Positions 26,887-49,552 of a DNA stretch of 64,000 nt are shown here, piece after piece. The DNA lies in the NCBI GenBank assembly GCA_030018495.1, contig JASEFS010000001.1, positions 62,001 through 126,000 on the forward strand, read 5' to 3'. The notes below the pieces were generated by a model that did no database searches, had not been told where the DNA came from, and was given only the letters and a program-made list of their open reading frames with translations. The stretch comes from Deltaproteobacteria bacterium. GTDB taxonomy: Bacteria > Desulfobacterota > Desulfobaccia > Desulfobaccales > 0-14-0-80-60-11. Every line of letters starts with the position of its first letter. Within the stretch, counting starts at the first letter, position 1. A program made the translations under genes and the position numbers.

Positions 26887-27402
26887 TCAGGGGCACAATT
26901 TCAAAAAGTCCTCATCAAGTTCCACCGCCACAGCCCGCTGGAACAGTTCCACGCTCACCACCAGCCGGTGTTTCTTCTCCAGGCGTTTTTGAATGACGCC
27001 CCTGGCCCCGGCCAGCAGCCCTGCGGTGATATACACCCGCATGCCGCGCCTCAAGGGAGGGCAGGTTATCAGAGGAAGCCCGCTTTTTTCCATAATCCTG
27101 ATGGATTCAAGAGTTTCATCAGGTACAGGCTCAAAGCCGCCCTGCCGCCCCAAAATTTTAACCACCCCTCTGGTTCTGCGGATATCCAGATAAGTTCGGG
27201 GGTCCAGTTCGGTGCGGATGAAGAGATAGCCGGGAAACAGCGGCTGCCTCAGGAAAAGCTTGCGGTCCCGGCGCCGGCTGGGAACCTTGATCCGGGGCAG
27301 GTACACTTCCTGGTCTTTTTGCCGCAAGGCCGACTCAACCACGGCTTCATTGCGGCAAAGGGTTTGCACCACATACCAGCGGAGATTGTTGACTTGCTTC
27401 AT
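26887..27402 (-). CDS. NusG paralogue (NGN + KOW), RfaH/UpxY/LoaP-like
   Basis: LRWYVVQTLCRNEAVVESALRQKDQEVYLPRIKVPSRRRDRKLFLRQPLFPGYLFIRTELDPRTYLDIRRTRGVVKIL...GMRVYITAGLLAGARGVIQKR. Confidence 0.9.
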   Translation of the reverse strand: MKQVNNLRWYVVQTLCRNEAVVESALRQKDQEVYLPRIKVPSRRRDRKLFLRQPLFPGYLFIRTELDPRTYLDIRRTRGVVKILGRQGGFEPVPDETLESIRIMEKSGLPLITCPPLRRGMRVYITAGLLAGARGVIQKRLEKKHRLVVSVELFQRAVAVELDEDFLKLCP

Positions 27403-31252: not shown

Positions 31253-31759
31253 TCAACGGCGGATTCCTCGCCCCCCGCCGCGGAAGCCATCGAAACGGAA
31301 ACCTCCGCTACCGCCAGGAGGGCTGCTAGGCGTGCGCAGAGGTTCGCGCAGCATGGGCCTTTGAACCGGTCGTTCAATGCGCCTTTCAGGTCTGGTGGGT
31401 CGTTCAATGCGCCTCTCCGGTATTTTGCGCCGATGGTCATCTTTGAACCGATGACGATAGGGGTAGTAATAATAGCCGCCTGGATAGGAGTAATAAGGGT
31501 AATAATAATAAGGATAGGTGTAGTCGTAAGGATAATAGCGGCCGTAGCGGTAATAACCGCCATAGCCCCAGTACGATCCGCAGGAAGGCAGGATGAATAG
31601 CAGGCAAAAGAAGAGCAGACAAAGGGCCGGCGCCAAGCAATCCGCACGGATTTCTGTGAGCCCCTCCTTTAATTGGCGCGGCCTCAAGGGGAAGTCTTGC
31701 CCGCTTTGCACCATACGCATGTGGTTTCTCATCTGGCCCCCATCTTTAGCGGCCGTCAT
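31253..31759 (-). CDS. Tyr-rich low-complexity lipoprotein
   Basis: Lipobox-like LPSCGS followed by YWGYGGYYRYGRYYPYDYTYPYYYYPYYSYPGGYYYYPYRHR and RIERPTRPERRIERPVQRP repeats. Confidence 0.6.
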   Translation of the reverse strand: MTAAKDGGQMRNHMRMVQSGQDFPLRPRQLKEGLTEIRADCLAPALCLLFFCLLFILPSCGSYWGYGGYYRYGRYYPYDYTYPYYYYPYYSYPGGYYYYPYRHRFKDDHRRKIPERRIERPTRPERRIERPVQRPMLREPLRTPSSPPGGSGGFRFDGFRGGGRGIRR

Positions 31760-32425
31760 TTCTTTGGCCTGGTGAATTAACTTTTAATAGACCCGGCAGC
31801 CTTCTAAAAGAAATGCAAAGAGGCGGCTGGAAAAAGCCCTTATAGGCTAATTATAAGCTTGTCGAAACGGAGGTCAATGTACGTCGGTCAACTAGCAGAG
31901 AGTAGTGAGGTTTCCTAAAAGGGTCTAGCCTTACCCGGGACTTGGCTCATAAGCCCTGAAGCTCAGAAAACGGCCATCTCCGGGAATTTTCATCTGCCGT
32001 TGCCTTCAGAGAAGGAAGCTTTCGCGACTCCCAAAGCTTTTCACGTTCAAAATCAGCAGATTTTGTTTGGCATAGCAGTCCGAGAGCTAAGGGTCATTGT
32101 CGAGAAATGGCCCTGCACATCACCATCCATTTCGAGCCTTGCAGCGTTTTTCTGTTCCATTTCAGATAGATACTTTTACCTAGTATTAAGTCAAACACAC
32201 CAAAATAAAAAGAGTATTTTCCTCTATTTTTTTTTAGAAAAACATTCTTTACCATGTTTTTAACCTTTCTGACTAAACTCCCGGCTCAGGGAAATTTGTT
32301 AAGCGATCTTCCCGGCCGGAGGTATGATTCAAAATCTTCCCAATTGTTGTCAATGTTTAACACCAATTATATAAGTAACTAACTAATATAATTCATAAAA
32401 TAATTTTGTTAAAGTAATTTACAAG

Positions 32426-32437
32426 GGCGGTAGCCTG
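32426..32437 (+). promoter_or_regulatory. ops/JUMPstart-like NusG-paralogue recruitment element in the EPS leader
   Basis: CAAGGGCGGTAGCCTG; core GGCGGTAGC identical to the E. coli ops core. Confidence 0.6.
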
Positions 32438-32857
32438 CCCAAACGAATCAAGAATTGAGAATTTGAGCCCTTCATTGCCCGAGACATCTCCAGGTCTGGA
32501 TTTCCTAAGAGGGATTTTGCAGCCTGTCCGGATCCAATCTTTAGTTCGGTTTGCATACCTTGCGAAAAGAAAATTCGCCATGATTCAGCTTCTTCAACAT
32601 GCTGTTTAATAAGCCGTCATGAAAAAATTCTGACAGGCTGGAGACACAAGGCAGGATTTCCAACAGAAGATTCGCCAGGCAGCTTGAGGCTACGTTTGAG
32701 GAAAAGCCAGGCTGTGTCATTTACCATTACAGCGCAATTCTGCACTGCCGGTAGATATTGGTCTAAAAGCGCGAAATTTTGAAATCACAAACAGTTCCAG
32801 CAACAGCGGTCTAATGTTATCGAATTATCAGAAAAGAATTTTGAGTGAAATACTTAA

Positions 32858-33844
32858 ATGAGAATAATTAAGTTTATCGCAACGATATTATTGTTTTTGG
32901 TAGTGTTCACCATTGGAAGCTATGTTGGAAAGATATTGTGCTTTAAAGGGTTCAAAATTCCCTTTATCGCTCCAAGAGACGAATGGGCGATAGCGCTTTA
33001 TCAGGGAAATTCACCTCTTAATTTTTTTCCTACCAAAAATTTCCCTAATCCAATTTTAACGGGCGATGATGTAAAAGACATTAAATCAACAGGCGTTGCA
33101 GATCCTTTTATGATTTTTGAAAATGGAAAATGGTATTTATTTATGGAGGTTATAGATAAAAATGGTAAGGGAAGTATAGGTCTTGCAACTAGTGAAAATT
33201 TAATTAAATGGCGATACGAAAAAATTGTTTTGAACGAGCCATTTCATTTATCTTTTCCTTTTATATTTAAGGTTGAAAATACTTATTTTATGGTGCCAGA
33301 GTCCCGCAGATCAAATTCGGTTCGACTGTACAAGGCTAAAGATTTTCCAAAAGAGTGGTCCTTTGAAGGAATACTAATTCCTCAAGGTCTAACCGATTCT
33401 TGCATTTTCAATTATCAAGAAAGGTGGTGGATGCTATCTTGCAGCCCGGCGGATTCCAGTAATCGCCAGGCTATATTTTTAGAACTCTTTTATTCTAATA
33501 ATCTTTTAGGTCCATGGACCAAGCATCCTAAGAGTCCTGTTGTCTCTGGTCGGCAATCGAGTAGACTCGGTGGACGGGTAATACAATACAATGGGAAACT
33601 TATAAGGTATGCTCAAGATGGTTCACCTTATTATGGCAGACAAATTCGTGCCTTTGAGATAACCGCCCTCTCAATTGAAGACTATGCCGAAAAGGAAATC
33701 CCCTTAAATCCTGAGTTAAGAGAAACGGGTGCAGGCTGGAATGCACATGGCATGCACCATATTGATCCGCACTTATTGCCGGATCAGACATGGATTGCTT
33801 GCGTTGATGGAAAGCAGAAAAGGTTACAAGTTTTTTGGAAATGA
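32858..33844 (+). CDS. Beta-propeller (GINT1/GH43-like) putative glycosyltransferase or hydrolase-like protein
   Basis: N-terminal TM; ADPFMIFENGKWYLFMEVIDKNGKGSIGLATSENLIKWRYEKIVLNEPFHLSFPFIFKVENTYFMVPES. Confidence 0.7.
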   Translation: MRIIKFIATILLFLVVFTIGSYVGKILCFKGFKIPFIAPRDEWAIALYQGNSPLNFFPTKNFPNPILTGDDVKDIKSTGVADPFMIFENGKWYLFMEVIDKNGKGSIGLATSENLIKWRYEKIVLNEPFHLSFPFIFKVENTYFMVPESRRSNSVRLYKAKDFPKEWSFEGILIPQGLTDSCIFNYQERWWMLSCSPADSSNRQAIFLELFYSNNLLGPWTKHPKSPVVSGRQSSRLGGRVIQYNGKLIRYAQDGSPYYGRQIRAFEITALSIEDYAEKEIPLNPELRETGAGWNAHGMHHIDPHLLPDQTWIACVDGKQKRLQVFWK

Positions 33845-34008
33845 TCCTAAGGAAAAAGATTCATAGCTGGGTGGAAGGTGAAATCGCTTAAGTGATAAGT
33901 CTGCATGCAGATTTCTGACCTCCAAAATCGAAGGGGATTAAATAAAATTGATTCAATTTTTTGAATACCTTTTTTATTAATCCTAATCAGAGCAATGAGG
34001 TCGATATC

Positions 34009-34617
34009 ATGATGCCCGCCTTTAAAATTAAAGAAATTATCGACCAAATTTTTAGTTGGCTTCTTCTTTTTGCTCTAAGCCCCATTTTTTGGTTTATAGC
34101 TGCGCTAATTCGTTTAGATTCCTCCGGACCCGCATTTTATCGACACACGCGTGTTGGGAAAGGCGGTCACCCTTTCGTGGCCTATAAATTTCGCTCCATG
34201 GTTGACAAGGCCAGTACATTAGGTCTGGGGCTGAATGTTTCCGTGGACGATCCGCGTATCACCAGAATAGGAAATTTGCTGCGCAACTCGAGTATGGATG
34301 AGCTTCCCCAGCTTTTTAATGTCCTGAAGGGAGATATGAGTTTGGTCGGGCCTAGACCTTCATGGCCTTATCATGCAGCTGCTTACAATGATTTTCAGCG
34401 ACGCCGACTCGAAGTCAAACCTGGTATTACTGGCTGGGCACAAATCAATGGTCGTAATTCCATTTCCTGGGAGGAACGCATCGCGTTAGACGTTTGGTAT
34501 ATAGATAACTGGTCTCTGAAATTGGACTTTTATATTTTACTACGAACAATTAAGACCGTGGTTCGGAAGGAAGGACTTTATGGGACCGAGGGAGTAAATT
34601 ATGATTTAAAGATTTAG
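34009..34617 (+). CDS. Undecaprenyl-phosphate sugar phosphotransferase (PglC/WcaJ C-domain type)
   Basis: YKFRSMV; NSSMDELPQLFNVLKGDMSLVGPRPSWP; LEVKPGITGWAQINGRNSISWEERIALDVWYI. Confidence 0.95.
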   Translation: MMPAFKIKEIIDQIFSWLLLFALSPIFWFIAALIRLDSSGPAFYRHTRVGKGGHPFVAYKFRSMVDKASTLGLGLNVSVDDPRITRIGNLLRNSSMDELPQLFNVLKGDMSLVGPRPSWPYHAAAYNDFQRRRLEVKPGITGWAQINGRNSISWEERIALDVWYIDNWSLKLDFYILLRTIKTVVRKEGLYGTEGVNYDLKI

Positions 34618-34696: not shown

Positions 34697-35824
34697 ATGA
34701 ATATCAAGAGAAAAGAAACTATCCCTCAAGTATTATCAAGCAGATGGGAACAAGGTTCCGAGTTGCATTGGTTTTCCTCCTGGAGGAGTTCCAACTCGTC
34801 CATGCCATGGGGAAAGCATCATTGTCTTTTTGGCAATGGACGCCATGCCTTGAAGGCATTAATCGATTTTGGTCAAACTACCAGAAACTGGCGGCGCCTT
34901 TGGATCCCCAGTTATTTTTGTCAAACAGTGGTGTCATCATTGTTATCCACCGGGATAGAAATATGTACATATATTGACAGTCCAGGATATTATGAACCAA
35001 ACTTTGATAATCTTGAGTTCAAGAAGGGAGATATATTATTTTTGGTAAATTATTTTGGACTCCGCGATAAATTTTTTGTTGACGATACTCATCGTAATTT
35101 AATTGAAATAGTGGAAGATCACACACATGATCCATGGTCCGATTGGGCATATACTAGCAGTGCAGACTGGTGTGTGGTATCCTTAAGAAAAACTCTTCCA
35201 GTGCCTGATGGCGCGGTTTTATGGTCCCCGGTCGGCCATCAACTTCCTTCGACAGTCGGGATAACTTCCGCTCACAAAGTGGCTGTAATGGAAAAATTTA
35301 CAGCTATGGTAATAAAAGGTCTTTATTTGAATAACTATTCGGTTATGAAAGAAGCTTTTCGCAACCTGGCAATCTCCGGAGAAGAGAAATTTGATAACCA
35401 GGGCATGATATCCGGTGCATCTGAATTGACCATGAACATATTGCCTACTTTCCCCGTAAAAATATGGAGAGAACGGCGATATCTCAATCACCAGACTTTA
35501 TCGACTGTCTTGGCGAAATTACCCTGGGTTGAAATTCTTCAGCCGAAAAGTAACAAATTAAGTGTTTGTCCATTTGGTGCAAGCCTTATTTTTGACTCAC
35601 CCGAGCGACAGTTGCGAGTCCGTTCATTATTAATTTCCTCTAACGTTTACCCGTCTATTCTATGGCCTCTTGACCAGCCAAGAACTGAAGGAATACCGCC
35701 TGAAAACATAGACTTCAGCCAGCGGATGCTATTTTTACATTGCGATATGAGATACGATAAGTCAGATATGGAATACATAAGTAATCTTATACATAGATTT
35801 GGAGAACAATCTAAAATAAGTTGA
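34697..35824 (+). CDS. PLP-dependent aminotransferase-fold protein (putative)
   Basis: LWIPSYFCQTVVSSLLSTGIEICTY; IVEDHTHD; SLRKTLPVPDGAVL, candidate PLP-Lys motif. Confidence 0.6.
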   Translation: MNIKRKETIPQVLSSRWEQGSELHWFSSWRSSNSSMPWGKHHCLFGNGRHALKALIDFGQTTRNWRRLWIPSYFCQTVVSSLLSTGIEICTYIDSPGYYEPNFDNLEFKKGDILFLVNYFGLRDKFFVDDTHRNLIEIVEDHTHDPWSDWAYTSSADWCVVSLRKTLPVPDGAVLWSPVGHQLPSTVGITSAHKVAVMEKFTAMVIKGLYLNNYSVMKEAFRNLAISGEEKFDNQGMISGASELTMNILPTFPVKIWRERRYLNHQTLSTVLAKLPWVEILQPKSNKLSVCPFGASLIFDSPERQLRVRSLLISSNVYPSILWPLDQPRTEGIPPENIDFSQRMLFLHCDMRYDKSDMEYISNLIHRFGEQSKIS

Positions 35825-36093
35825 TTGCTCCAGCGATAAAGTTTTTTGAAATAGTCTTACAAGCTTCCTGCATGGGTCTGAGAGAGACATATTTGCCCCT
35901 TTATGGGTGCAGGTCAAGATCCAGGATTTGGCGAATTAACTTAATCTTGCCATTAAGTTGCATTCCAGACAGAACGCTGTCACACCCCGTCAAGGCACCG
36001 TCTTCCACCAAACCCGGGCGATGAATAAACCATTCAACGATCAGGAAGTTGAATGCTGATATTTAAATCATAGTTGTTCAGGAGGCATTTATC

Positions 36094-36432
36094 ATGTTTT
36101 CTCGAAAAAACAGGGTAAATTACAATTTCTCAGTCTCCGATGTGGTGCGTGTGTTATCTAAAGATAATATTGATCTTTCGCTTGGCCAGGACAATAAATT
36201 GGATGGTTGTTTGTTTATGCCCCAAATGTATCAATATTGTGGCCAACAATATGAAATTGTAAAAGTTGTAAAAAATATCTATCTTGACCATGATAGGAAA
36301 ATGATAAGATGTCGTGCACCGTTATATCTCTTAAAAGATTTAAAATGTGATGGAAATACGGACATCTTTCCTCACAAGTGCGACAGGACGTGCTATTTAC
36401 TCTGGCATGAAAAATGGTTGGAAAGAATTTAA
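36094..36432 (+). CDS. Small Cys/His-rich polysaccharide-cluster protein, copy 1
   Basis: VVRVLSKDNI...LDGCLFMPQMYQYCGQ...CDGNTDIFPHKCDRTCYLLWHEKWL. Confidence 0.75.
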   Translation: MFSRKNRVNYNFSVSDVVRVLSKDNIDLSLGQDNKLDGCLFMPQMYQYCGQQYEIVKVVKNIYLDHDRKMIRCRAPLYLLKDLKCDGNTDIFPHKCDRTCYLLWHEKWLERI

Positions 36433-36502
36433 CCATTTTTTGCAAGGTCATAAAAGTTTTGAAAAACACCGATGCGCTTGAAAGAAAGTAGGAGAAAAGA
36501 AA

Positions 36503-36994
36503 ATGTGCCAGTTCAAATATGTTAATGAAATTGCCGCAGAGGATTCCTGGTTGGATGATAAATTGGAAATTTTAAGAAAAAAGATGTTGTATGTCAGGTG
36601 GAGGGTAAATCGGTTAAGAGATAGGTTTGCACGCAGATATCTGGCCACAAAGCCAGAAGTTTTCAGTGATCCTCCGGTAAGTCCGGGAGAAATAGTGCGT
36701 GTCCGCCCGAAAAGGGAAATCCAAGGTATGTTGGACGATCGCAGAAAGTATAAGGGCTTGGGCTTCCTGCTGGAACAATTCAGTCTTTGTGGCAGCACCC
36801 AAATGGTATTAAAGGAGGTTAACTACTTTTATGATGAAGTAATGGAAAAACAGGTAAAATGCAAAAATCTAGTTTTTCTTGAAGATTGCCATTGCAGCGG
36901 CATCATACCTTTTTTATCAAGTCAGTGTGATCTTAATTGCTTGTTGTTTTGGCATAAAGATTGGTTAGTAAGAAAGGAAAATAAAGATATTTAA
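36503..36994 (+). CDS. Small Cys/His-rich polysaccharide-cluster protein, copy 2 (extended N-terminus)
   Basis: IVRVRPKREIQGMLDDRRKYKGLGFLLEQFSLCGS...CHCSGIIPFLSSQCDLNCLLFWHKDWL; aligns over its C-terminal ~100 aa with copy 1. Confidence 0.75.
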   Translation: MCQFKYVNEIAAEDSWLDDKLEILRKKMLYVRWRVNRLRDRFARRYLATKPEVFSDPPVSPGEIVRVRPKREIQGMLDDRRKYKGLGFLLEQFSLCGSTQMVLKEVNYFYDEVMEKQVKCKNLVFLEDCHCSGIIPFLSSQCDLNCLLFWHKDWLVRKENKDI

Positions 36995-36998
36995 AGGC

Positions 36999-37714
36999 AT
37001 GCCAATGGAAAGCTTTGCTTTAAAAGAATATTGGATGGCTCGCGAGGACCAGGATTCTTCGTTTAAGCTCCAGTTGGTTTTAAATTTCTTTGAAAAATAT
37101 CCTTATTTGATAAAAAACATGGGTTACTATGCGGATATTGGATGTGGAAATGGTTCATTTATTTTAGCTTTCGCGGATTACTTAAAAAGTATTGGAATGA
37201 AATATCAAATATACGGTTATGATACTTCAGCATATGCCATTGAATTAGCAAAAAAAAAGGACATGGAGATAACGTTAAATTTTATGTTGGTTCCAGTTCT
37301 AACCTGCCCAAAGAGTTGGACATTCTCTTTTGTATGGATGTAATTGAGCATCTGGAAGAACCTTATCAATTTCTTGACAGTCTGAAAGAAAAAACCCATT
37401 TTTTGATGCTGCATTTGCCTTTGGAACAAAGCATATGTCATTTATTGTTAAAAAAGCCGTCGAGATCCTTTAATAGATTGGGACACTTGCATTTTTTCTC
37501 CTGGGAGACGGCAAAAATTTTAATCAAACATTCGGCTTTTGAGATAGTAGATTATCAATTTACCAGTCCCGCAATTTCATTAAGAATTTTATCAAAGGAT
37601 AAAAAGAAGCTTCATCACTTATTCAGATATCTGCTCTACAAAATTCATCCTTCGCTCGCTGCCGTTCTAGTCGGCGGGTCTGTTATGCTCCTTTTAAAGA
37701 ATAATAAGTTATAA
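36999..37714 (+). pseudogene. SAM-dependent methyltransferase split by an apparent -1 frameshift at an A9 tract
   Basis: ORF 36999-37343 (ADIGCGNGSFILAFADYL...YGYDTSAYAIELAKKK) and ORF 37316-37714 (LDILFCMDVIEHLEEPYQFL) are the two halves of one methyltransferase; frame changes at A9 (37250-37258). Confidence 0.8.
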
Positions 37715-37794
37715 TAACCAGTCTTTTTTCACAGGTAAAAAAAGAATAAAAAGAAACCCTTGCCAATAACCGGCTGTGTATATAGGGATAATCC

Positions 37795-38898
37795 ATGAAT
37801 GTCTATCCATATTCTGAGACATTAACTTACGAAGATCCATGCCACCGGCTGAAATGGCGAAACCTAGCCCATCTTTTCCCCGAGTTTGATATTTATTTCT
37901 TGCCTGAATACTCTTATCTCTTTGAATTGAATGGTGATGGCAAAGCTCATTGTTTTGTGTATTATCAATCAGAGAAAGAGGTGGTTATTTATCCCTTTCT
38001 AAAACGACAGATCAATAAAATGCCAGACTTTTCTGATCTCCCCGAAAACTTGTTTGATATTACCTCTCCGTATGGATATGGAGGTTATCTACGTAATAGT
38101 GATAATATTGATATTAGCAAATTTTATGCCGTCTTTATGGATTACTGCCGCCAAAATGATATTATTTCAGAATTCGTACGTTTTCATCCCTTGCTGAAAA
38201 ATCATGCTTATTGCCCGAAGCAGGTAAATTTAGTCAATTGGAATGAAACAGTGTTCATTAATCTTATGGTCGACAGTGAAAGACTTTTTCAAAATTTTAA
38301 CCAGAAGAAAAGAAATAGAATTAGAAAAGCGCAAAAGCTTGGAATTAAAATAATTGAAGATACTGAAATTAATCATTTGCAAACATTTTATGACATTTAC
38401 ACGCAAAATATGGAATATGTAGCGGCCAAGGAATATTTTACTTTCAGCAAGGAATGGTTTGAAAAGATGATAGACTTGTTTAAGTCAAAAATTACCTTGT
38501 TCCATGCAATCCTGGAATCAAAAATCATTGCTTCCGGCATATTCATCTGGCATGAAAATTTCCTTCAATACAAATTTAGCGGAATATCGGTTGGAACGCG
38601 TCATTTACCTGCAAATTGTCTTTTGATATATGAGGTTGCACTTTGGGCAAAAAAAAGGGGAATCAAGTACTTCCATCTCGGTGGTGGATTGACCAAAAAT
38701 GATGATCTGTTCAAATTTAAATCTCATTTTTCTAATGAAAGAGGGCAGTACTTTTTGGGGACCGTCATTCATAATCAGGAAATCTATAGATATCTGGAGA
38801 TGAAGGCTGCAGAGCGAAAACCTGTTCAATCCCTTAATACTAATTTTTTCCCAGCCTACCGTGCTCCCGGAAAAAGCGGCGGCTCTTGGACCCGATGA
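37795..38898 (+). CDS. FemAB-like GNAT acyltransferase
   Basis: FNQKKRNRIRKAQKLGIKIIEDTEINHLQTFYDIYTQNME...HLGGGLTKNDDLFKFKSHFSNERGQYFLGTVIHN. Confidence 0.8.
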   Translation: MNVYPYSETLTYEDPCHRLKWRNLAHLFPEFDIYFLPEYSYLFELNGDGKAHCFVYYQSEKEVVIYPFLKRQINKMPDFSDLPENLFDITSPYGYGGYLRNSDNIDISKFYAVFMDYCRQNDIISEFVRFHPLLKNHAYCPKQVNLVNWNETVFINLMVDSERLFQNFNQKKRNRIRKAQKLGIKIIEDTEINHLQTFYDIYTQNMEYVAAKEYFTFSKEWFEKMIDLFKSKITLFHAILESKIIASGIFIWHENFLQYKFSGISVGTRHLPANCLLIYEVALWAKKRGIKYFHLGGGLTKNDDLFKFKSHFSNERGQYFLGTVIHNQEIYRYLEMKAAERKPVQSLNTNFFPAYRAPGKSGGSWTR

Positions 38899-39162
38899 TA
38901 ATCCAGCCATGGTTACCTGATCCCCCAGAAGATGGTAGTGAAAGCAGCCCACTCAGAAAAAACTCTCGTCGTCTGAATCGACTTGCATCATCATCGGCTC
39001 AGTAAATTATGAGGGCCACCGAAAATCGGTCAATTAAATAACCTGCTCCTCCACCACCCGCACCCTTTACTGCTATTAGCAAAAATCTGTGTCGATTTAA
39101 ATCAACCGTCACCATACGAGCCAAGTCACTTAAGACCATGAGTTTTAACGGAGGGCAAAACG

Positions 39163-40299
39163 ATGCCCCGCAAAGTGCTGAAGACGTGTAGTTATCGGGC
39201 TCAGGTAAAGGCAAGAGAAGAAAGCTTGTCTTCCTGGAGAGAGGCAATGGGAAAACTGGGGCGAAGTATTGTTGCCATGACGCTTTTGGGATTGGTTCTC
39301 GCCGGGGGTTGTGGGGGCTCTTCCCAGCAAGCCATCACGGCCCAGGCAATGACTCAAAGGCAAGCCCCGAACTCCAGCAGTGAGCTCCAGAATAAATTGA
39401 TGGTGCAAACCACTCAGGCATCGTTGGCAGGCTATAAAGATTACCAGATCGGGCCGGAAGATCTCCTCGAGATTTTGTTCCTGGGGCTGGACGACCTCAA
39501 CCGGGAGGTGCGGGTCAACGGCCAGGGGGAGATCACCGTGCCCTTGGTGAATGCCGTAAACGTTGCCGGCCTGTCCCCCCAACAGGTGGAGGAGAAGTTG
39601 ATGAAGCTCTACCGGGAGCGAGAGTTCATCAATAACCCGCATATAACCGTCCAGGTCAAGGAGTACCGCCACCAGCGGGTCATGGTCACCGGCGCCGTCG
39701 CTCAACCCGGCTCCTATGAGGTCATCGGTCCCCGGACTTTGCTGGAGATGCTGGGCAAGGCCGGCGGCTTGAACGACAGGGCCGGGGACATGGTGCATCT
39801 GGTCCGCAACCAGAGCGCCGCGGACCGGGCCAAGGCGGCGAAAGGCAATGCCGCGGAGTCTTTTGCCCCAGGAACGGAAACCATAGTTATCGATCTGCGG
39901 CGTTTGTTGATGGAAGGTGACCTGAAGCTGAACCTGCCGGTGAAAAGCGGAGATGTCGTTCACGTGCCTTTTGCCCGCAGCGCTTTTGTACTGGGCGCGG
40001 TGAACAAGCCGGGTAACGTGCCGGTGAAAGACAATCTCACCGTCACCCAGGCCTTGGCAGTGGCCGGGGGCCTCAACCCCCTGCTGGCCTCCAATCGCGT
40101 CACTGTAGTGCGTCTAGACGAGAAGGGCCAGCAGGTGAATATGACCATGAATATGAAAGATACGGTTTCCGGTAAGGAAAAGGACCCAATCATCCGAGAA
40201 AACGATATCGTCTATGCCCACGAGAGCGGGTTTCGGCGGTTTCTCTTCAATGTCCGCAACCTCTGGCCCGGCGCTCTGTCCGTGCCGCTTATCCCTTGA
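39163..40299 (+). CDS. Polysaccharide export outer membrane lipoprotein (Wza-like, SLBB)
   Basis: YQIGPEDLLEILFLGLDDLNREVRVNGQGEITVPLVNAVNVAGLSPQQVEEKL; VMVTGAVAQPGSYEV. Confidence 0.93.
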   Translation: MPRKVLKTCSYRAQVKAREESLSSWREAMGKLGRSIVAMTLLGLVLAGGCGGSSQQAITAQAMTQRQAPNSSSELQNKLMVQTTQASLAGYKDYQIGPEDLLEILFLGLDDLNREVRVNGQGEITVPLVNAVNVAGLSPQQVEEKLMKLYREREFINNPHITVQVKEYRHQRVMVTGAVAQPGSYEVIGPRTLLEMLGKAGGLNDRAGDMVHLVRNQSAADRAKAAKGNAAESFAPGTETIVIDLRRLLMEGDLKLNLPVKSGDVVHVPFARSAFVLGAVNKPGNVPVKDNLTVTQALAVAGGLNPLLASNRVTVVRLDEKGQQVNMTMNMKDTVSGKEKDPIIRENDIVYAHESGFRRFLFNVRNLWPGALSVPLIP

Positions 40300-40356
40300 C
40301 GACTATGGCTTGTCTTCATTTTCCCGCAATCTGAGAAGTAAGCAGAGGACTGCATC

Positions 40357-42603
40357 ATGTCTGATTATGATCAAGTGGAAAAGTCGAAGTCCCTACAATT
40401 GCCCGGCCCGGACAGGTCCTTACCGGAGGCGTATCCCTACCCCGGCTATTATTCCGGCTATGGGGATGAGGAGTTGGAACAGGGCTGGCATCTGCTGGAT
40501 TTTTGGTACGTCCTTGAGAAGCGCAAGTGGTGGTTTTTAGGGGTCTTTGTGCCCGTGGTCCTGGCGATGGGGCTTTATTCCTTTCTGACCACCCCCATCT
40601 ACCGGGCTTCGGCCATTTTGCAGATCGTCCAGGACAATCCTTCGGCCATTGTGAGCGAAAAAGACCCCCTGGATGCGCTGTCCGCGGGCGACACCCAGGG
40701 GCGGTTTTACGAAACCCAGTACATGCTTCTGGGCAGCAAGACGCTGGCCGCCAAAATCATCCAATCCCTGAACCTCAAGGAGCACCCGGAATACAAAGAA
40801 TTGGCAAAAAAGAATAAGGATAAGACTCCTTATGAAATCGAGGCCGCGTACCTGGAGGACTTCTTAAAAAAGTTAGAAATTTTACCATTAAAGAAATCCT
40901 ATCTGGTGGAAATCTTCTTTCAGTCCCCGGACAAAGATCTGGCAGTCAAGGTCCCCAATGCGGCTTACAAGGAATACCTGGAATTCGCCATGCAGACCCG
41001 GCAGCAGTCCTACAGTTTGATCCGGGAGTGGTTGGAAAACGAACTGCATCAGTTGGCGGATAAGGTGGAGGCCTCGGAGAAGAAGCTCTACGCCCACGGC
41101 AAGGAAAAGAACTTCCTGGCTCTGGAGGGCGAGGATAATGTCATCGTCAAGAAATATGTGGAACTGAACAAAGTCCTGACCACGGCCCAGACCGAGCGGG
41201 CCGCCAAGGAGGCGCAATATCAACAGGTGCAGAAACGGGGGGCCGATGCTCCCCTGATCATCAACAATCCCTTGGTGCAGAGGCTCAGGGAAGAGATGAT
41301 TACCCAGAAAGCCCAGGTGGCCAGCCTGGCCAAGACCTTCGGCAAAAACTACCCGCAATTACAAGCCGAACAGGCCAAGCTGGGGGAACTTAAGTCCCGG
41401 GTGAACAGTGAGGTGCAGCGCACTCTGGCCAGCATCAAAGCGGATTACGAGGCGGCGCTGAGGACCGAAAATTTCCTCCGGGAAGAGGCCGGTCGACAGC
41501 GAAAAGAGGTGGAAGGGCTCCAGGAGAATCTGGTGCAGCATAACATCCTCAAACGCGACCTCCAAACCAACGAGCAACTCTACCAGGCCCTGCTGGCCCG
41601 GATGAAAGAAGCCAGCGTGGCCAGCACCATGGTGGCCAGCAATGCCGCGGTCATTCAGCCTGCAAAGCCGCCCCTGGAGCCTTATAAGCCTAAGAAGGCT
41701 TTAAATATGGCCCTGGCGGTCTTAGTGGGGCTCATGGGCGGGGTGGGTATGGCCTTCCTGGCCGAATACCTGGACAGCTCCATCAAAACCTCTGAGGAAA
41801 TGGAACGAGTGTACCGTCTGCCCTCCTTGGGTGTGGTGCCGCTCTTATCTACTAACAGCGATCGCGCCACCAGCAACGGGGACCGACAGCTGGCCCTGGC
41901 AACCTATGCCAAGCCCATGTCGATGCTGGCTGAGGCGGTGTTCCACCTGCGCACCTCTCTCATGCTTTCCATGTCCGGCCGGCCGCCGGGCACCATCCTG
42001 GTGACCAGCCCTAACCCCGGTGAGGGCAAGACCACCCTTTCCATCAACCTGGCCTCCGCCATGCTCTTTGGGGACAACAAGGTGCTGATCATCGATGGAG
42101 ATCTGCGGCGACCGCATATCAACCAGATGTTCGAGGTGCTCCTGGAGCCGGGCTTGAGCAACTATCTAACCGGCAGCACGCAGATCACGGAAATTATCAA
42201 GGAAACCCCGGTGCAAAACCTCTACATCATCCCCGCCGGCCCCAAGCCGCCACACCCCATCCAGCTCTTAAGTTCTCCGGCCTTTCGGAGCTTACTGGAA
42301 GAGCTCAAGCAGGACTTTGCCCACATCGTCATCGACACGCCCCCTATTATCGGTTTTGCGGACGCCCGGGTGGTCGCCCATATGGTAGACGGAGTGCTTC
42401 TGGTCATCAGGCACAACCAAACTTCCCGAGACGCCGGCAAGCTGGCCATCCAGCTCCTGAACCAGGCCTATGGCAACATCCTGGGGGTGGTGCTCAACAT
42501 GGCCCAAAAGGACAAGATGGGATATAGGGGGTATTACAGTTACTACAAATATTACCATAAATACTACGACGGCTACTCCAAGGATAGCGGGAAAAGAGCA
42601 TAA
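40357..42603 (+). CDS. Wzc-like polysaccharide copolymerase / BY-kinase
   Basis: Wzz domain; Walker A NPGEGKTTLSINLA, KVLIIDGDLRRP, FAHIVIDTPPIIG; Tyr-cluster tail YRGYYSYYKYYHKYYDGYSK. Confidence 0.95.
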   Translation: MSDYDQVEKSKSLQLPGPDRSLPEAYPYPGYYSGYGDEELEQGWHLLDFWYVLEKRKWWFLGVFVPVVLAMGLYSFLTTPIYRASAILQIVQDNPSAIVSEKDPLDALSAGDTQGRFYETQYMLLGSKTLAAKIIQSLNLKEHPEYKELAKKNKDKTPYEIEAAYLEDFLKKLEILPLKKSYLVEIFFQSPDKDLAVKVPNAAYKEYLEFAMQTRQQSYSLIREWLENELHQLADKVEASEKKLYAHGKEKNFLALEGEDNVIVKKYVELNKVLTTAQTERAAKEAQYQQVQKRGADAPLIINNPLVQRLREEMITQKAQVASLAKTFGKNYPQLQAEQAKLGELKSRVNSEVQRTLASIKADYEAALRTENFLREEAGRQRKEVEGLQENLVQHNILKRDLQTNEQLYQALLARMKEASVASTMVASNAAVIQPAKPPLEPYKPKKALNMALAVLVGLMGGVGMAFLAEYLDSSIKTSEEMERVYRLPSLGVVPLLSTNSDRATSNGDRQLALATYAKPMSMLAEAVFHLRTSLMLSMSGRPPGTILVTSPNPGEGKTTLSINLASAMLFGDNKVLIIDGDLRRPHINQMFEVLLEPGLSNYLTGSTQITEIIKETPVQNLYIIPAGPKPPHPIQLLSSPAFRSLLEELKQDFAHIVIDTPPIIGFADARVVAHMVDGVLLVIRHNQTSRDAGKLAIQLLNQAYGNILGVVLNMAQKDKMGYRGYYSYYKYYHKYYDGYSKDSGKRA

Positions 42604-42777
42604 TGCTATCTTCAGATAGAACTAAGAAAATTTAAGAAAATCTTCATGCTTCACAGAAAGCAATGCTTGTGTAAATAGATTTTCTGGAGCACGTCAGGCG
42701 ATCATCATACGAACCAAGTCCGAAGGCCCAAAGGAGAATACTCCGACATAGGGTCTCCTCTCCGTACTCCTCAACTC

Positions 42778-44025
42778 ATGAACGCTACTCTCTTGGAATT
42801 GGAAGATGCATTGAATGAAGGAGTAGTGCAAGAGAATCTCCTTATTTCAATGTCAGCTCCTGACCTCACCCAAGGCGAGAGGAGTGCTGTAAGCCAAGTA
42901 CTTACAACTCCGCACTTGGCTCTGGGACCACAGTTGGTCGAGTTTGAAAAATGTTTCAGTGAATTAATCGGGCCTTACCAATGCGTCGGGGTGTCGAGCG
43001 GCACCGCAGGTCTGCACCTTGCTGTCATTGCCGCTGATGTCAAAGATGGCGACCTGGTCATCACCACCCCCTTTTCCTTCATAGCCTCGGCGAATTGCAT
43101 TTTATATGAAAGGGGATTTCCCATTTTCGTGGACGTGGACCCAAGAACGGGAAATCTCGATCCCAACTTGGTCCAAGAAGCCGCCCAGGACCTTATCCAG
43201 GGAGGAGTCAAGGCCCGCCGCTGGTTGCCGGCTTCCGGGCGCGCCAACGACTCCCTTCGGAAAGGCTGCCTTAAGGCAATTCTGCCGGTTCATGCCTTTG
43301 GGCAACCCGCGGATATGGATCCTCTCTTAGAAACGGCTCGGCGGCATGGGCTCGTGGTCATTGAGGATGCCTGTGAAGCCCTGGGCAGTGAGTACAAAGG
43401 CCGCAAAGCGGGGTGCCTGGGAGATATCGCGGTTTTCGCTTTTTATCCAAATAAACAGATAACCACGGGAGAGGGTGGGATGATCGTCACCGCATCTCCT
43501 GAATGGGAGGCCCTTTTTCGTTCTTTGCGTAATCAAGGCAGGGATGTCTTCGATGCCTGGCTCAATCATAGTCGTCTGGGATTCAACTATCGCTTGGACG
43601 AAATGAGTGCCGCCTTGGGGGTGGCCCAATTGGCGCGCCTCGATGAAATACTGCAAAAGAGGGAACAGGTTGCCGGCTGGTATGGAGAACGGCTGGCTGA
43701 TTTGGAACTGGTGGAAGTGCCTTTTATCTCCCCTTACACCACTCGCATGAGTTGGTTTGTCTATGTCGTGCGCCTCAAACCGCCCGCTTCCCGGGAGCGG
43801 GTAATGTCCGAACTGCAGAAAGCCGGCATTCCCAGCCGTCCGTATTTCACGCCTATTCACCTGCAACCGTTCTATCGGAAAGAATTCGGTTACCGCGAGG
43901 GTGACTTTCCTGTTACCGAGTATTTGGGAAATGTTTCCCTGGCACTGCCCTTTTCAGGCGTAATGACGGAAACACAGGTTGATTATGTCTGCGAACATTT
44001 AGGACGGTCACTGACAAGATATTAA
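42778..44025 (+). CDS. DegT/DnrJ/EryC1/StrS aminotransferase
   Basis: VGVSSGTAGLHLAVIAA; VVIEDACEALGSEYKGRKAGCLGDIAVFAFYPNKQITTGEGGMIVT. Confidence 0.95.
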   Translation: MNATLLELEDALNEGVVQENLLISMSAPDLTQGERSAVSQVLTTPHLALGPQLVEFEKCFSELIGPYQCVGVSSGTAGLHLAVIAADVKDGDLVITTPFSFIASANCILYERGFPIFVDVDPRTGNLDPNLVQEAAQDLIQGGVKARRWLPASGRANDSLRKGCLKAILPVHAFGQPADMDPLLETARRHGLVVIEDACEALGSEYKGRKAGCLGDIAVFAFYPNKQITTGEGGMIVTASPEWEALFRSLRNQGRDVFDAWLNHSRLGFNYRLDEMSAALGVAQLARLDEILQKREQVAGWYGERLADLELVEVPFISPYTTRMSWFVYVVRLKPPASRERVMSELQKAGIPSRPYFTPIHLQPFYRKEFGYREGDFPVTEYLGNVSLALPFSGVMTETQVDYVCEHLGRSLTRY

Positions 44026-44132
44026 AAGCTATTGCAAACCCAACATTGGTCATCCTGGACGTAATGAAGGATCCCGAACTTTTACAACAGCCTCTAAGCT
44101 CCTTCTAACAAGCGCTTATTCGGTCCAAAGCA

Positions 44133-46097
44133 ATGGCAACTATTAGCAGGCCATCCGAAGCTCTGAAAATTATTGGGAAAATTCCCGACAAAGTCTATTT
44201 TGCCATTGTCGATAGCGTAATGCTGGCCATAGCCGTCTATTTGAGCTTTGTTTTACGTCTGGAAACCTTTGATGTATCGAGTTTCGAAATGGTAATTTTG
44301 ATTTTGACCGCATCTTTGTCCTGCATCAACCCGTTAGTCTTTCGAGTTACCGGTGTTTATTCCATTGTCTGGCGTTACTCTTCGATTGAAGAAATGCTGA
44401 AGTTGATTGCCTCAGTGACACTTGCGGTCCTGTTGGCCTGCATTGTCACCGTGTTCATCGGCGTTCTGCATCCGGACAATTATTTTCTCCCCCGCTCTAT
44501 TCCCTTTATTCTTCTTTCTGTTGCCATACCCTTGATTGTTTATCCCCGGGCCATCATGCGAATAGTCGCCATTTGGCAAATTAGAAGACAAAACCATAAC
44601 AATGGGGCCCACAAGAAAACCTTAATAATCGGAGCAGGGAGCGCGGGCTCGCTCATCATGCGAGAGATCCGTCTGAATCCCCAGTTGAGTCTGGATATTA
44701 TCGGGTTCCTGGACGATGACCCGGCAAAAGACCGTCAGTTTATCCACGGCAAAATGGTTCTTGGCGACCTGAAGAGTATTAAGGAAGTGGTAGAAACCTA
44801 CCAAGTCGAGCAAGTTATCATTGCAATGCCGACTGCTCCGGGCAGAGCGGTCCGGAAGATTGTCGATTTCTGCAACAACGCCAATCTGCCTGTCAAAGTT
44901 ATGCCTGGCATTTATGAGCTGCTGAACGGCAACGTGAGCGTCAACAGCCTGAGGCCGGTTCAAATTGAAGACTTGCTGCGTCGAGAAATGGTACAAACCA
45001 ATGTCTCAAGCACGGCAGGGATCATCAAAGGAAAGCGCATTCTGGTCAGCGGCGCCGGCGGGTCTATCGGCAGTGAGTTGTGCCGCCAAATCTGGCGGTT
45101 GGATCCTGAGATGCTTATTTTGCTGGGACACGGAGAAAATAGCATTTTTAACATTCATAATGAATTGCAGGAGTCTTGGCACCGATCTGGTCAGAAGAAC
45201 ATCGGCGCGAGATTGCAGCCAGTGATTGCGGATGTTCGCTTCCCAGAAAGACTCCGTGCCGTTTTTGAGGAATTTCATCCGGAAATTGTTTTCCATACTG
45301 CCGCCCATAAACACGTGCCCCTCATGGAGATCAACCCGGGAGAGGCCGTTATCAACAACGTGCTGGGAACCCATTATCTCCTGGAAACCTGCCAATCTTT
45401 TTGGGTCGAGCGATTTTTGCTGATATCCACTGACAAGGCGGTGAGGCCTGCCAGCATTATGGGAGCTACCAAGAGATTGGCCGAGCTGCTGGTGCAGAGA
45501 GCTGCAGCAACCAGCCAAAAACCTTATGTTTGCGTCAGATTCGGCAATGTCTTAGGCAGCCGGGGAAGCGTTTTATTGAAATTTAAAGAACAACTGGCTA
45601 TGGGGGGCCCGCTAACCATCACCCACCCGGACATGGAGCGCTACTTTATGACCATCCCGGAGGCCGTGCATCTGGTCATCCAGGCTGCATCCCTGGGAAA
45701 AGGCGGTGAAGTTTTTGTCCTTGATATGGGTGAGCCGGTGAAAATTGTCGATCTGGCCAAAGACCTTATAAAACTTTCGGGAAAAGTGCCGGGCCGGGAC
45801 ATTGATATCGTGTTCACCGGGGTGCGGCCGGGCGAGAAACTTCGGGAAGAGCTCTTCTTGCCAAGCGAAGACTATCATCACACGCAGCATCCCAAAATTT
45901 ATGTTGCTGAGGCCGATCGATGCTCCCAGTCTATGTTGCATGATTTGATGGAGGAATTGCGTGATTCCGCGCTGGTGAATGACCAGGAACGCATGAAGAG
46001 TCTTTTCTTTAAGCTGATACCAGACCTCCACCTTTGCAACCTGAAGGCAGTAAATTACGAGCAAAGCTTTGCAGGCCACGGTCAAGCTGCCTCATAG
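44133..46097 (+). CDS. Membrane-anchored nucleoside-diphosphate-sugar 4,6-dehydratase/epimerase (WbpM/CapD-like)
   Basis: N-terminal TM helices; LIIGAGSAGSLIMREI; ILVSGAGGSIGSELCRQI; FHTAAHKHVPLME; STDKAVRPASIMGATKRLAEL. Confidence 0.95.
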   Translation: MATISRPSEALKIIGKIPDKVYFAIVDSVMLAIAVYLSFVLRLETFDVSSFEMVILILTASLSCINPLVFRVTGVYSIVWRYSSIEEMLKLIASVTLAVLLACIVTVFIGVLHPDNYFLPRSIPFILLSVAIPLIVYPRAIMRIVAIWQIRRQNHNNGAHKKTLIIGAGSAGSLIMREIRLNPQLSLDIIGFLDDDPAKDRQFIHGKMVLGDLKSIKEVVETYQVEQVIIAMPTAPGRAVRKIVDFCNNANLPVKVMPGIYELLNGNVSVNSLRPVQIEDLLRREMVQTNVSSTAGIIKGKRILVSGAGGSIGSELCRQIWRLDPEMLILLGHGENSIFNIHNELQESWHRSGQKNIGARLQPVIADVRFPERLRAVFEEFHPEIVFHTAAHKHVPLMEINPGEAVINNVLGTHYLLETCQSFWVERFLLISTDKAVRPASIMGATKRLAELLVQRAAATSQKPYVCVRFGNVLGSRGSVLLKFKEQLAMGGPLTITHPDMERYFMTIPEAVHLVIQAASLGKGGEVFVLDMGEPVKIVDLAKDLIKLSGKVPGRDIDIVFTGVRPGEKLREELFLPSEDYHHTQHPKIYVAEADRCSQSMLHDLMEELRDSALVNDQERMKSLFFKLIPDLHLCNLKAVNYEQSFAGHGQAAS

Positions 46098-46098
46098 T

Positions 46099-47451
46099 AT
46101 GCGGATTCAAGAGACTCCTCTACCCTCCGATATCGGCATTCAAGAGGAGTTTTATCCCGACTCCGCCCGGGGGCTTTCCCTTCGTTGCAACTTTCTCTGG
46201 ACCCTGGCCGGCAACGTGGTCTATGCCGCCTGCCAGTGGGGCATGCTGGTGGTCCTGGCCAAGCTGGGCAGCCCGGAGATGGTGGGCCAGTTCGCTTTGG
46301 GACTGGCCATCACCGCGCCGATTTTTATGTTCAGCAATCTCCAACTCCGCGCGGTTCAGGCCACGGATGCCCGCCGGGAATATCTCTTCGGCCACTATCT
46401 GGCTTTGCGGCTGTTGACCGTTATTCTGGCTTTCCTGGTTATCGGCGGCATCACGGGATTGAGTTCTTATAGCTGGGGCACCAAACTGGTCATCCTGGCC
46501 GTAGGTCTGGCCAAGGCTTTTGAGGCCGTCAGCGATGTGTTCTACGGTTTGTTTCAGCAGCATGAAAGATTGGACCGCATTGCCACTTCCATGATGATTA
46601 AGGGGCCTTTGTCCCTGGCGGCCCTGGGATCGGTTTTCTACCTCACCGGGAGTATGTTCTGGGGCGCCTTGGGTTTGGTAGCGGCCTGGGCCGTGGTCTT
46701 GCTGGCTTATGATATGTATCGCGGCGCCCAAATATTGGCTGTCGCCGCATCGAATTCCGGAAGAAATACCTCCCCCCTGGTTCGGCGCCGCCTGGTTCTC
46801 CAACTCCCCTGGGAGCCTGCCACCCTAAGCCGCCTCGCTTGGCTGGCCTTGCCCTTGGGATTTGTCATGATGGTGATCTCCCTAAAAACCAACATCCCCC
46901 GGTACTTTATCGAGCACTATCTGGGAGAGCGGCAGTTGGGGATTTTCGCGGCTATGGCCTATTTTATGATGGCCGGAAAGCAGGTGGTAGGCGCTCTGGG
47001 GCAGTCGGCCACCCCTCGCTTGGCCAAATACTACGCCGCCGGGCGCAAAGGAGCGATGTTCACGCTCCTGGTCAAGCTGATGCTTCTCGGCGGCCTGTTG
47101 GGTGTGGCCGGGGTGCTTGTCGCTCTGATGGCCGGCAAGGAAATCCTTACCCTGGTCTATCGGGCCGAATATGCCGAAAAGGCCGGGGTCCTGGCGTGGC
47201 TGATGGCGGCCGCCGGCATTTACTATATCGGAGTCTTTTTGGGCTTTGGGATGACCGCGGCCCGTTACTTTCGCATTCAGGCCCCTTTGAATGCAGTCAC
47301 TTTGCTCCTTATTACCGGTGTTTCGGCGCTGCTGATTCCCCGCTATGGTCTGGTGGGGGCCGCCTGGGTCGCCTGTGTTGTTTATACCGTGGAAATTCCT
47401 CTGAAAGCCTGGATCATGGCCCACGCCTTCAAACATTTCCCCGTTAATTGA
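46099..47451 (+). CDS. Wzx-like oligosaccharide flippase
   Basis: 12-14 TM MOP-type protein: SLRCNFLWTLAGNVVYAACQWGMLVVLAKLGSPEMVGQFALGLAI. Confidence 0.9.
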   Translation: MRIQETPLPSDIGIQEEFYPDSARGLSLRCNFLWTLAGNVVYAACQWGMLVVLAKLGSPEMVGQFALGLAITAPIFMFSNLQLRAVQATDARREYLFGHYLALRLLTVILAFLVIGGITGLSSYSWGTKLVILAVGLAKAFEAVSDVFYGLFQQHERLDRIATSMMIKGPLSLAALGSVFYLTGSMFWGALGLVAAWAVVLLAYDMYRGAQILAVAASNSGRNTSPLVRRRLVLQLPWEPATLSRLAWLALPLGFVMMVISLKTNIPRYFIEHYLGERQLGIFAAMAYFMMAGKQVVGALGQSATPRLAKYYAAGRKGAMFTLLVKLMLLGGLLGVAGVLVALMAGKEILTLVYRAEYAEKAGVLAWLMAAAGIYYIGVFLGFGMTAARYFRIQAPLNAVTLLLITGVSALLIPRYGLVGAAWVACVVYTVEIPLKAWIMAHAFKHFPVN

Positions 47452-47469
47452 TCGAAATAAAAAGCTTAA

Positions 47470-48627
47470 ATGAACTTATTGCATCTGAGTTCGCCCGTGC
47501 GCATTCTCCAGGTTGTCGGAGGAATGAACCTGGGGGGCGTGGAAACCTGGCTGCTGCAAGTCTTGCGAAATATTGACAGAGAACGCTTCCAGATTGACCT
47601 GCTGGTCCATACGGAGGAGGAGTGCGTCTATGATGAGGAAGTGCGGGCTCTGGGCTGCCGGATTCTCCCTTGCTTGCATCCCCGCCAGCCGTGGACTTAC
47701 GCCCGCAATTTCCACCGCCTGGTCCGGGAATGCGGCCCCTACGATATCATTCACAGCCATGTTTTCCGCTTCAGCGGCTTTATTATGCGACTGGCGGCTG
47801 CTGCCGGCATTCCGGTGCGCATCGCTCACAGTCGCAGCTCGGCGGAGAACCGCAACCTGACCATATGGCGGCAGGGCTACAATTTCCTGATGAGTTCCTG
47901 GCTGGCAGGATACTCCACCCATCTCCTGGCGGTCTCCCGTGATGCGGCCCTGGGGCTGTACGGCCCCGGTGGCCTCAACGACTCCAAGCTCTTTCTGGCG
48001 CCTTCAGCCATTGATTTCACCCCGTTTCAAGAAAACTGTTCAAGCGGGGAGATCAGAGACGGCCTGTCTTTGCCTCTGGACGCCAAGGTGGTGGGGCATG
48101 TGGGCAGGTTTACGGAAGCCAAGAACCATGATTTTGTCATCGAAGTAGCTCGGATTCTTTGCCAGCGGCGGCCAAATCTTCAATTTGTGCTGGTGGGTGA
48201 AGGGCCGTCCCGGACTGTATGCATGGAACGGGTGGAGAAAATGGGACTGGCCCCGCGGTTCAAGTTTACCGGGGCCCGCCGGGACGTGCCGCGGCTCATG
48301 AAGGGGGCCATGGACCTGTTGCTCTTTCCCTCTAAATGGGAGGGCCTTCCCCGCGTAGTACTGGAAGCCCAGGCCGCCGGCTTGCCCTGCGTTATTTCAG
48401 ATGTCATTTCCGAGGAGGTGGAAGTGGTGCAGCCGCTGGTGCGGCGCCTCTCCTTGAAGCAGCCCCCCGCAGACTGGGCCGAGGCCGTCCTGGCCGCCCT
48501 TGATAATCCCCCGCCGGTCAGCCCCCATGATGCCTTTGCTGCCATGCAGGGCAGCCGGTTCAGTATGGCTGGCAATGTCAAGCTCCTGGAGAGCCTTTAT
48601 TTGCAAGCCTTAACGGAGCGCCGATGA
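47470..48627 (+). CDS. GT4 family glycosyltransferase
   Basis: RILQVVGGMNLGGVETWLLQVLRNID; GHVGRFTEAKNHDFVIEVA; FPSKWEGLPRVVLEAQAAGLPCVISDVI. Confidence 0.94.
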   Translation: MNLLHLSSPVRILQVVGGMNLGGVETWLLQVLRNIDRERFQIDLLVHTEEECVYDEEVRALGCRILPCLHPRQPWTYARNFHRLVRECGPYDIIHSHVFRFSGFIMRLAAAAGIPVRIAHSRSSAENRNLTIWRQGYNFLMSSWLAGYSTHLLAVSRDAALGLYGPGGLNDSKLFLAPSAIDFTPFQENCSSGEIRDGLSLPLDAKVVGHVGRFTEAKNHDFVIEVARILCQRRPNLQFVLVGEGPSRTVCMERVEKMGLAPRFKFTGARRDVPRLMKGAMDLLLFPSKWEGLPRVVLEAQAAGLPCVISDVISEEVEVVQPLVRRLSLKQPPADWAEAVLAALDNPPPVSPHDAFAAMQGSRFSMAGNVKLLESLYLQALTERR

Positions 48628-49499
48628 ATCCTCCGGTATCTGTAATCATGGCAGCCTATAACGCCGAAAAAACCATAGGCGCGGCCATTCGCTCCATCCT
48701 GGGACAGACTCACCAAAACCTGGAGCTCATCATCGTGGACGATGCTTCCCGGGATCGGACCGTAGAAGTCATCCATTCATTCTCCGATCCACGTTTGGTG
48801 CTACTACGTAACAGAGCTAATATTAAGCAGGGGCTTTCTCGGAATATTGCTATTGACGCCGCCAAGGGGGAATTCATTGCCGTCATAGATGCCGACGATC
48901 TGAGCCTGCCCACCCGCCTGCAAAAACAGGTGGAATTTTTAGTCTCACATCCCGAAGTGGATGTCGTAGGCAGCAACTCTTATCTCTTCAATGACTCCGG
49001 AGCTATCCTGGGCGGATTGGTAAATAAGGGGCAAACCCACCAGGAATTGACTGCCAGGATAGACCGTAAGATTCCCCTGACTCACCCAACCATTATGGGG
49101 CGGGCGGAGTGGTTTCGAAAATACCGCTATCGGCAATATCCGCGCTCACAGGATCGGGACCTTTTTCTTCGTTCCTACCGGCACAGTACCTTCGCGAATA
49201 CTCCGCTGTTTTTGTATGCGTATCGTGATCCGGGGAAGCTGTCAATGAGAAAACTGGTTCTGGCCAGTTGGACCAATCTAGTAATTCGACTGCGACATCG
49301 GCGGGAATATGGATTGCCGGTTTACTCGGTTCTCGCTTCTCCCCTTTTGATGGGGGGTAAATGGTTTTACTGGGGGCTCCTAGCCTTGCGAGGCCAGAGC
49401 CTCTTCGCTCTCCCCTGCCAAAAACTTGAAAATAACCAACGAGTTGAGGCCGACCAGGCTTGGATTTGGCATTGTTTGGGGATAAGCTCGCAAATTTAA
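48624..49499 (+). CDS. GT2 family glycosyltransferase
   Basis: VSVIMAAYNAEKTIGAAIRSILGQTHQNLELIIVDDASRDRTVEV...VIDADDLS; ATGA overlap with upstream gene. Confidence 0.95.
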   Translation: MNPPVSVIMAAYNAEKTIGAAIRSILGQTHQNLELIIVDDASRDRTVEVIHSFSDPRLVLLRNRANIKQGLSRNIAIDAAKGEFIAVIDADDLSLPTRLQKQVEFLVSHPEVDVVGSNSYLFNDSGAILGGLVNKGQTHQELTARIDRKIPLTHPTIMGRAEWFRKYRYRQYPRSQDRDLFLRSYRHSTFANTPLFLYAYRDPGKLSMRKLVLASWTNLVIRLRHRREYGLPVYSVLASPLLMGGKWFYWGLLALRGQSLFALPCQKLENNQRVEADQAWIWHCLGISSQI

Positions 49500-49552
49500 A
49501 AACATACCAATCAAAATTCCCAAACTCTTATTCTAAATAAACAAGGCCCGGA

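Follow-up and report, generated by a model that had tools for sequence, protein, structure and literature searches.

In Escherichia coli, the paused transcription complex at an ops sequence exposes a non-template strand carrying the pairs G2:C9 and C3:G8 and a sheared G4:A7, and RfaH contacts bases G5 and T6 (PMC11001881, PMC5995543). As of 2020, E. coli RfaH was the only member of its family with recruitment known in detail, and how paralogues lying inside the operons they control are recruited was unknown (PMC7593976). Whether non-template hairpins without the T6 loop recruit other factors was an open question in 2024 (PMC11001881). The Rfam JUMPstart motif was described for Gammaproteobacteria (PMC2864571), and the model (RF01707) is not listed for Desulfobacterota. 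The locus analyzed here, in a 64,000-nucleotide stretch (the window) of a Desulfobacterota genome, probably of the class Desulfobaccia, raises the question of whether an element of this kind serves an exopolysaccharide (EPS) operon in that phylum and, if so, which protein would read it. No report of ops elements in the phylum was found in a literature search that covered mainly open-access papers, and both ops and JUMPstart appear to be previously undescribed in Desulfobacterota. The phylum is probably sulfate-reducing; a search of relatives detected dsrA in almost every one at E<=1e-100.

Position and anatomy of the window element

The features of the locus are listed below.

26887..27402, - strand: specialised NusG paralogue (RfaH/UpxY/LoaP-like) by profile matches; a TTG start is possible at 27429
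32387..32392, + strand: TATAAT, possible -10 hexamer with no good -35, read by eye
32406..32424, + strand: weak stem-loop TTGT(T)AAA-GTAA-TTTACAA, 1 nt 5' of the core
32413..32418, + strand: AGTAAT, match to the [TA]GTAA[CT] box in a box scan of 67 elements
32426..32437, + strand: ops core GGCGGTAGCCTG, from genome and phylum motif counts and DNA fold; hairpin numbering from PMC11001881 and PMC5995543
32438..32440, + strand: conserved YCC extension (here CCC), part of the GGCGGTAGCCTGYCC class enriched phylum-wide
32858..33844, + strand: first EPS-operon gene, GINT1_N domain (GH43/GH32-like), by domain match
33961..34617, + strand: priming sugar transferase, Bac_transf PF02397, by domain match
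34697..52065, + strand: rest of the EPS operon, with FemAB-like, Wza-like export (Poly_export/SLBB), Wzz/tyrosine-kinase-like, DegT aminotransferase, Polysacc_synt_2 (epimerase), Wzx-like flippase and glycosyltransferase genes

The site reads ...TTGTTAAAGTAATTTACAAG-GGCGGTAGCCTG-CCC... on the + strand, and GGCGGTAGCCTGCCC (32426-32440, + strand) lies within a 1.1-kb non-coding leader. The interval 31760-32857 is free of open reading frames except for one 87-codon frame without evident coding value. The 19-kb operon begins at 32858, 432 nt after the element, and all major ORFs from there to 52065 are on the + strand with polysaccharide functions assigned by domain. These values agree with a preliminary description of the window, which had placed the site ~420 nt before the first gene of a ~19-kb same-strand polysaccharide operon, in a ~1.1-kb gene-free leader. 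The sequence it had given, CAAGGGCGGTAGCCTGCCC, proved exact in sequence and position, and the two-base difference from the enterobacterial JUMPstart terminus was upheld by comparison with CAGGGGCGGTAGCGTG, retrieved from the rfb locus of E. coli MG1655.

The window element shares GGCGGTAGC and T11G12 with the E. coli ops/JUMPstart; its GGCGGTAG core is followed by TG at positions 11-12. Unlike the E. coli ops, it has C instead of G at position 10, which adds one stem pair, and YCC after the TG. The sequence permits the non-template hairpin G2:C9, C3:G8, G4:A7 with loop G5-T6. By analogy with E. coli, GGCGGTAGCCTG is predicted to form the stem G2:C9, C3:G8 plus G1:C10, with a sheared G4:A7 and loop G5-T6, and the predicted pause falls at T11 (32436), with G12 next. 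Folded as DNA, the 12-mer yields -2.4 kcal/mol with stem 1-3/8-10. Both hairpins proposed earlier, GGGC...GCCC and GGC-GGTA-GCC, exist on paper; the second of them is the counterpart of the ops hairpin demonstrated experimentally in E. coli (PMC11001881).

Like the E. coli JUMPstart, the window element stands in the leader of a long polysaccharide gene cluster, with a weak candidate stem-loop containing a TGTAA-type stretch immediately upstream. The rfb JUMPstart retrieved from MG1655 reads CUGGUAGCUGUAAAGCCAG-G-GGCGGUAGCGUG, in the same order (stem-loop, then ops) as many elements of this phylum. The stem sequences are unrelated, and the first gene is 432 nt away in the window, a longer distance than in E. 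coli, where about 100 nt is typical (PMC11001881). The window stem-loop, although placed as in JUMPstart, is by itself non-significant (-0.6 kcal/mol, z=0.23; p=0.51). In a 1.3-kb search the RF01707 model gave independent support by matching 32412-32437 at 21 bits (E=0.1). This is below its gathering score of 35 bits, and the window element is therefore not filed under that family; the E. coli control scored 60 bits. Searching 12 loci of the phylum (61 kb) with RF01707 returned no match at E<=2, indicating that the model is too gamma-specific.

A promoter scan upstream of the element on the + strand found no sigma-70-type promoter. Use of the TATAAT hexamer would possibly place the ops pause ~37 nt into the transcript. 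Positions 32370-32400 form an A/T-rich stretch of the type AACTA[AG][CT]TAATT, a possible promoter or operator, and stretches of this type also occur upstream of elements in relatives (L054, L057-L060), some 30-80 nt before the element.

Motif counts in the window and genome

The 9-mer occurs twice in the window against a computed expectation of 0.43, close to the ~0.5 estimated in the preliminary description; the other copy (31307-31315, - strand) lies inside an ORF. The genome (3.46 Mb, 63 contigs) contains 44 copies without enrichment, so the bare 9-mer carries no weight. In a genome scan, proposed in the same description, the extended form GGCGGTAGNNTG (the 9-mer plus the functionally required T11G12) had four copies genome-wide, of which two are in EPS leaders, namely in the window and at the start of a NusG-paralogue/EPS operon on contig C4. 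Of the remaining two copies, one lies antisense within a uvrC-like gene and the other within a long ORF. Scanning the genome for three-mismatch matches to the 18-mer revealed no recurrent site. A relatives search with the first EPS gene (32858-33844) returned one Planctomycetota locus, at 41% identity, with no ops-like core.

These counts bear on whether a GC-rich 12- to 15-mer simply happened to fall in an EPS leader. The frequency of the 9-mer and the weakness of the window upstream hairpin would fit such an accident, as would the coding location of every other ops-like match in this genome apart from the C4 leader and a leader on contig C19. The scarcity of the extended form, half of whose copies stand in EPS leaders, argues the other way, as do the intergenic position of the window copy, its GTAAT box and the phylum-wide enrichment described below; we consider a chance match unlikely.

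Conservation of the element class across the phylum

The genome belongs to a class of 29 genomes surveyed, and 398 genomes of the phylum were searched for the exact pattern. Tenth-position counts, tallied by hand, for GGCGGTAGC-N-TGYCC were C 35, A 6, G 3 and T 2 (C in 35/46), whereas the one-base loop control GGCGGGAGC-N-TGYCC was flat (C 18, A 12, G 15, T 18; Fisher p=8e-7). GGCGGTAGC-C-TGYCC is ~9-fold over-represented across the phylum. By hand classification as leader or coding, 27 of 40 GGTA sites were in leaders compared to 1 of 16 GGGA control sites, the controls being outside this genome; about a third of the exact GGTA sites examined were coding decoys, a proportion that the chance explanation can claim. 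For exact GGGA and triloop patterns across the phylum, the unlinked matches fell mostly in coding frames and were used as background.

Two further patterns were observed. GGCGAAGC[CT]TGTCC is strongly over-represented in single genomes of family f50 (G127, G284, G246), with 22 pattern matches in G127 against a control of 0, and may be a dispersed repeat or a large regulon. Genomes of family f54 (L274, L277-L279) have several GGTA elements each, and at ~-60 nt from some of these lies an inverted repeat, TGTTCAGTG..TGAACA.

Related elements with other loops were first spotted by eye in the flanks of paralogue genes of the window's class and then scored mechanically. The loops vary across the phylum: the tetraloops are GGTA, GGGA, GGAA or GGCA, the triloops GAA or GGA. 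All variants keep the stem known from the E. coli ops hairpin, together with its closing G:A; in one (L056) A2:T9 replaces G2:C9. The C10 preferred in the phylum permits the additional G1:C10 pair. Upstream stem-loops are present beyond chance among 67 sites (Wilcoxon p=4e-5 against shuffles). In a folding comparison the mean z was -1.48, compared to -0.04 to -0.35 in control windows. Individually, 22 of the 67 reach p<0.05, representing 21 distinct stems, and in 14 of these 22 the 3' arm ends exactly 3 nt from the core. A [TA]GTAA[CT] box was found within 22 nt upstream of 21/67 elements versus 6/400 control windows; the window site has the box.

The same anatomy could in principle operate as RNA, with the leader transcript folding the GGGC...GCCC hairpin for a protein that binds RNA as LoaP does. 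The inverted repeat GGGCGGTAGCCTGCCC gives -4.8 kcal/mol folded as DNA, YCC can pair with G1-G2, and the LoaP model is among those that the paralogues match. Against this, the core is conserved with T11G12, as fits an ops pause, the loop and closing G:A agree with the E. coli hairpin structure solved on non-template DNA (PMC11001881), and the outer arms are not always complementary, e.g. AATGGCGGTAG...CCC. An RNA element is judged quite improbable.

Linkage to RfaH-like genes and polysaccharide operons

In the 398 genomes, searching with TIGR01955 placed 15 exact sites on the strand of an RfaH-like gene and downstream of it. Fourteen are at 60-510 nt (G057, G310, G225, G265, G092, G389, G287, G214, G293, G262, G306, G383, G144, G397), and the fifteenth is ~2.4 kb from the gene (G378). 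Mechanical scoring yielded 14 loci with a 0-1 mismatch element on the strand of the gene and 0 on the other, and 40 further loci chosen for an RfaH-like gene gave 5 same-strand versus 0 opposite. With a broader regular expression, 139 paralogue genes had 53 ops-like elements on the same strand versus 4 on the opposite; exclusion of the 13 loci chosen for a GGTA site left 126, with 41 versus at most 4 (p about 1e-8). Polysaccharide genes lie downstream of other elements as well. These sequence comparisons give good support to an ops/JUMPstart-type element that occurs outside Gammaproteobacteria and is linked to RfaH-like paralogues.

No recognisable element was found near 87 of the 139 paralogues examined. 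At 60 phylum-wide loci collected with a window-type profile there were zero 0-1 mismatch matches and ~8 with the broader expression, and most such proteins must therefore act elsewhere or use something else.

The linkage also weighs on another explanation, that the site is a consensus pause without a dedicated factor, in the service of RNA folding, NusG-dependent regulation or transcription-translation coupling. According to work cited in PMC7593976, RNA polymerases from diverse bacteria pause at ops sequences even when RfaH is absent, and non-template hairpins with other loops occur in E. coli operons (PMC11001881). At least one genome (G253) carries an ops of the leader type and no RfaH-like gene above E=1e-20. 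Against a pause that recruits no paralogue stand the strong same-strand linkage and a hand count of TIGR01955-type paralogues (E<1e-20), which are present in 25/27 genomes with a leader GGTA site versus roughly 170/398 overall. We regard a factor-free pause as very improbable.

NusG paralogues of the genome

Four genes with the Pfam NusG domain (PF02357) were identified in the genome, three of which are specialised paralogues. The one in the window, reported in the preliminary description as RfaH/UpxY-like, is indeed present on the - strand, 5.0 kb from the element and opposite to it, and encodes an NGN domain protein extra to the housekeeping NusG. Its best NCBIfam match is RfaH TIGR01955 at 88.6 bits, short of the equivalog cut-off of 144.5 bits, a score reached in none of the 398 phylum genomes; it is likewise below the curated UpxY and LoaP cut-offs. 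Like RfaH, it is a stand-alone gene with an NGN+KOW layout and keeps T72-R73-G74. Unlike RfaH, it lacks K10, H20 and R23, so that R73 alone remains of the ops-contacting set K10, H20, R23 and R73, and E48 is replaced by Q. For the alpha-helical, autoinhibited KOW domain that characterises RfaH, a single-sequence AlphaFold model of the window protein, made without an alignment, had a pLDDT of 34. UpxY of Bacteroides and LoaP of Bacillus are likewise specialised NusG paralogues, associated with long operons for polysaccharides or antibiotics, and several relatives in the phylum head their own operons as UpxY does, the difference here being the ops-like hairpin beside the gene.

The C4 paralogue heads an EPS operon with its own GGTA-loop element at its start codon (C4:41212, L051 10212). 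The closest relative of the window paralogue is the C19 paralogue (76% identity), which has a GAA-loop element in its leader (C19:6418, L050) and Q where the window paralogue has R73. The R73 region of the window paralogue resembles the IRYTRGV stretch of several GGTA partners, a lead rather than proof. Residue 71, at which most GGTA partners have Y, S or A and GGAA/GGGA partners have W, was considered as a loop code and set aside as confounded by lineage. The acting factor at the window site could be any of the window, C4 and C19 paralogues. The earlier proposal of ops antitermination outside Gammaproteobacteria is partly supported: comparison bears out the linkage of element and paralogue, the paralogue 5 kb away is one candidate of three for the cognate factor, and transcription and pausing at the site are predicted.

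Elsewhere in the window, a c-di-GMP-I-GGC riboswitch (64 bits; 26033-26115, + strand) lies directly 5' of ORF 26177-26806, whose product is predicted to be secreted, has an HExxH-like motif and matches no Pfam family.

Discussion

The window site is, in our assessment, probably a JUMPstart-type ops element at which RNA polymerase pauses and an RfaH-like antiterminator is recruited, an assignment made by analogy with E. coli. The element, the conservation of its class, its hairpin architecture and its strand-specific association with RfaH-like genes and with operons for polysaccharides are evident from the genomes themselves. Several observations count against this assignment: the weak window stem-loop, the sub-threshold Rfam score, the lack of a sigma-70-type promoter in the upstream + strand scan, the distance of 432 nt versus roughly 100 nt in E. 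coli, the 87/139 paralogues without a nearby element, the three of four ops-contacting side chains missing from the window paralogue, and the ops of G253 in a genome without an RfaH-like gene.

Transcription of the site, pausing, recruitment and antitermination are steps that we infer from the E. coli system. RNA polymerase transcribing the EPS leader would pause at T11 of GGCGGTAGCCTG, and the exposed non-template strand would form a mini-hairpin with G1:C10, G2:C9, C3:G8, a sheared G4:A7 and loop G5-T6. An RfaH-like NusG paralogue would dock on this loop, stay with the polymerase and displace NusG. The bound paralogue would then protect the 19-kb operon from early termination by processive antitermination.

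The comparisons suggest that recruitment of the ops type extends beyond the RfaH lineage of Gammaproteobacteria, the setting being a deep-branching phylum where neither ops nor JUMPstart appears to have been described. A broader proposal, to which we give slightly less than even credence, is that the ops hairpins used in the phylum form a family with a common stem and closing G:A, in which each loop (GGTA, GGGA, GGAA, GGCA, GAA or GGA) is read by its own RfaH/NusG paralogue. If true, parallel and possibly orthogonal antitermination circuits would exist, several per genome, and operon-encoded paralogues would be recruited in cis by their own loop. The survey provides candidate element-protein pairs for the questions raised in PMC7593976 and PMC11001881.
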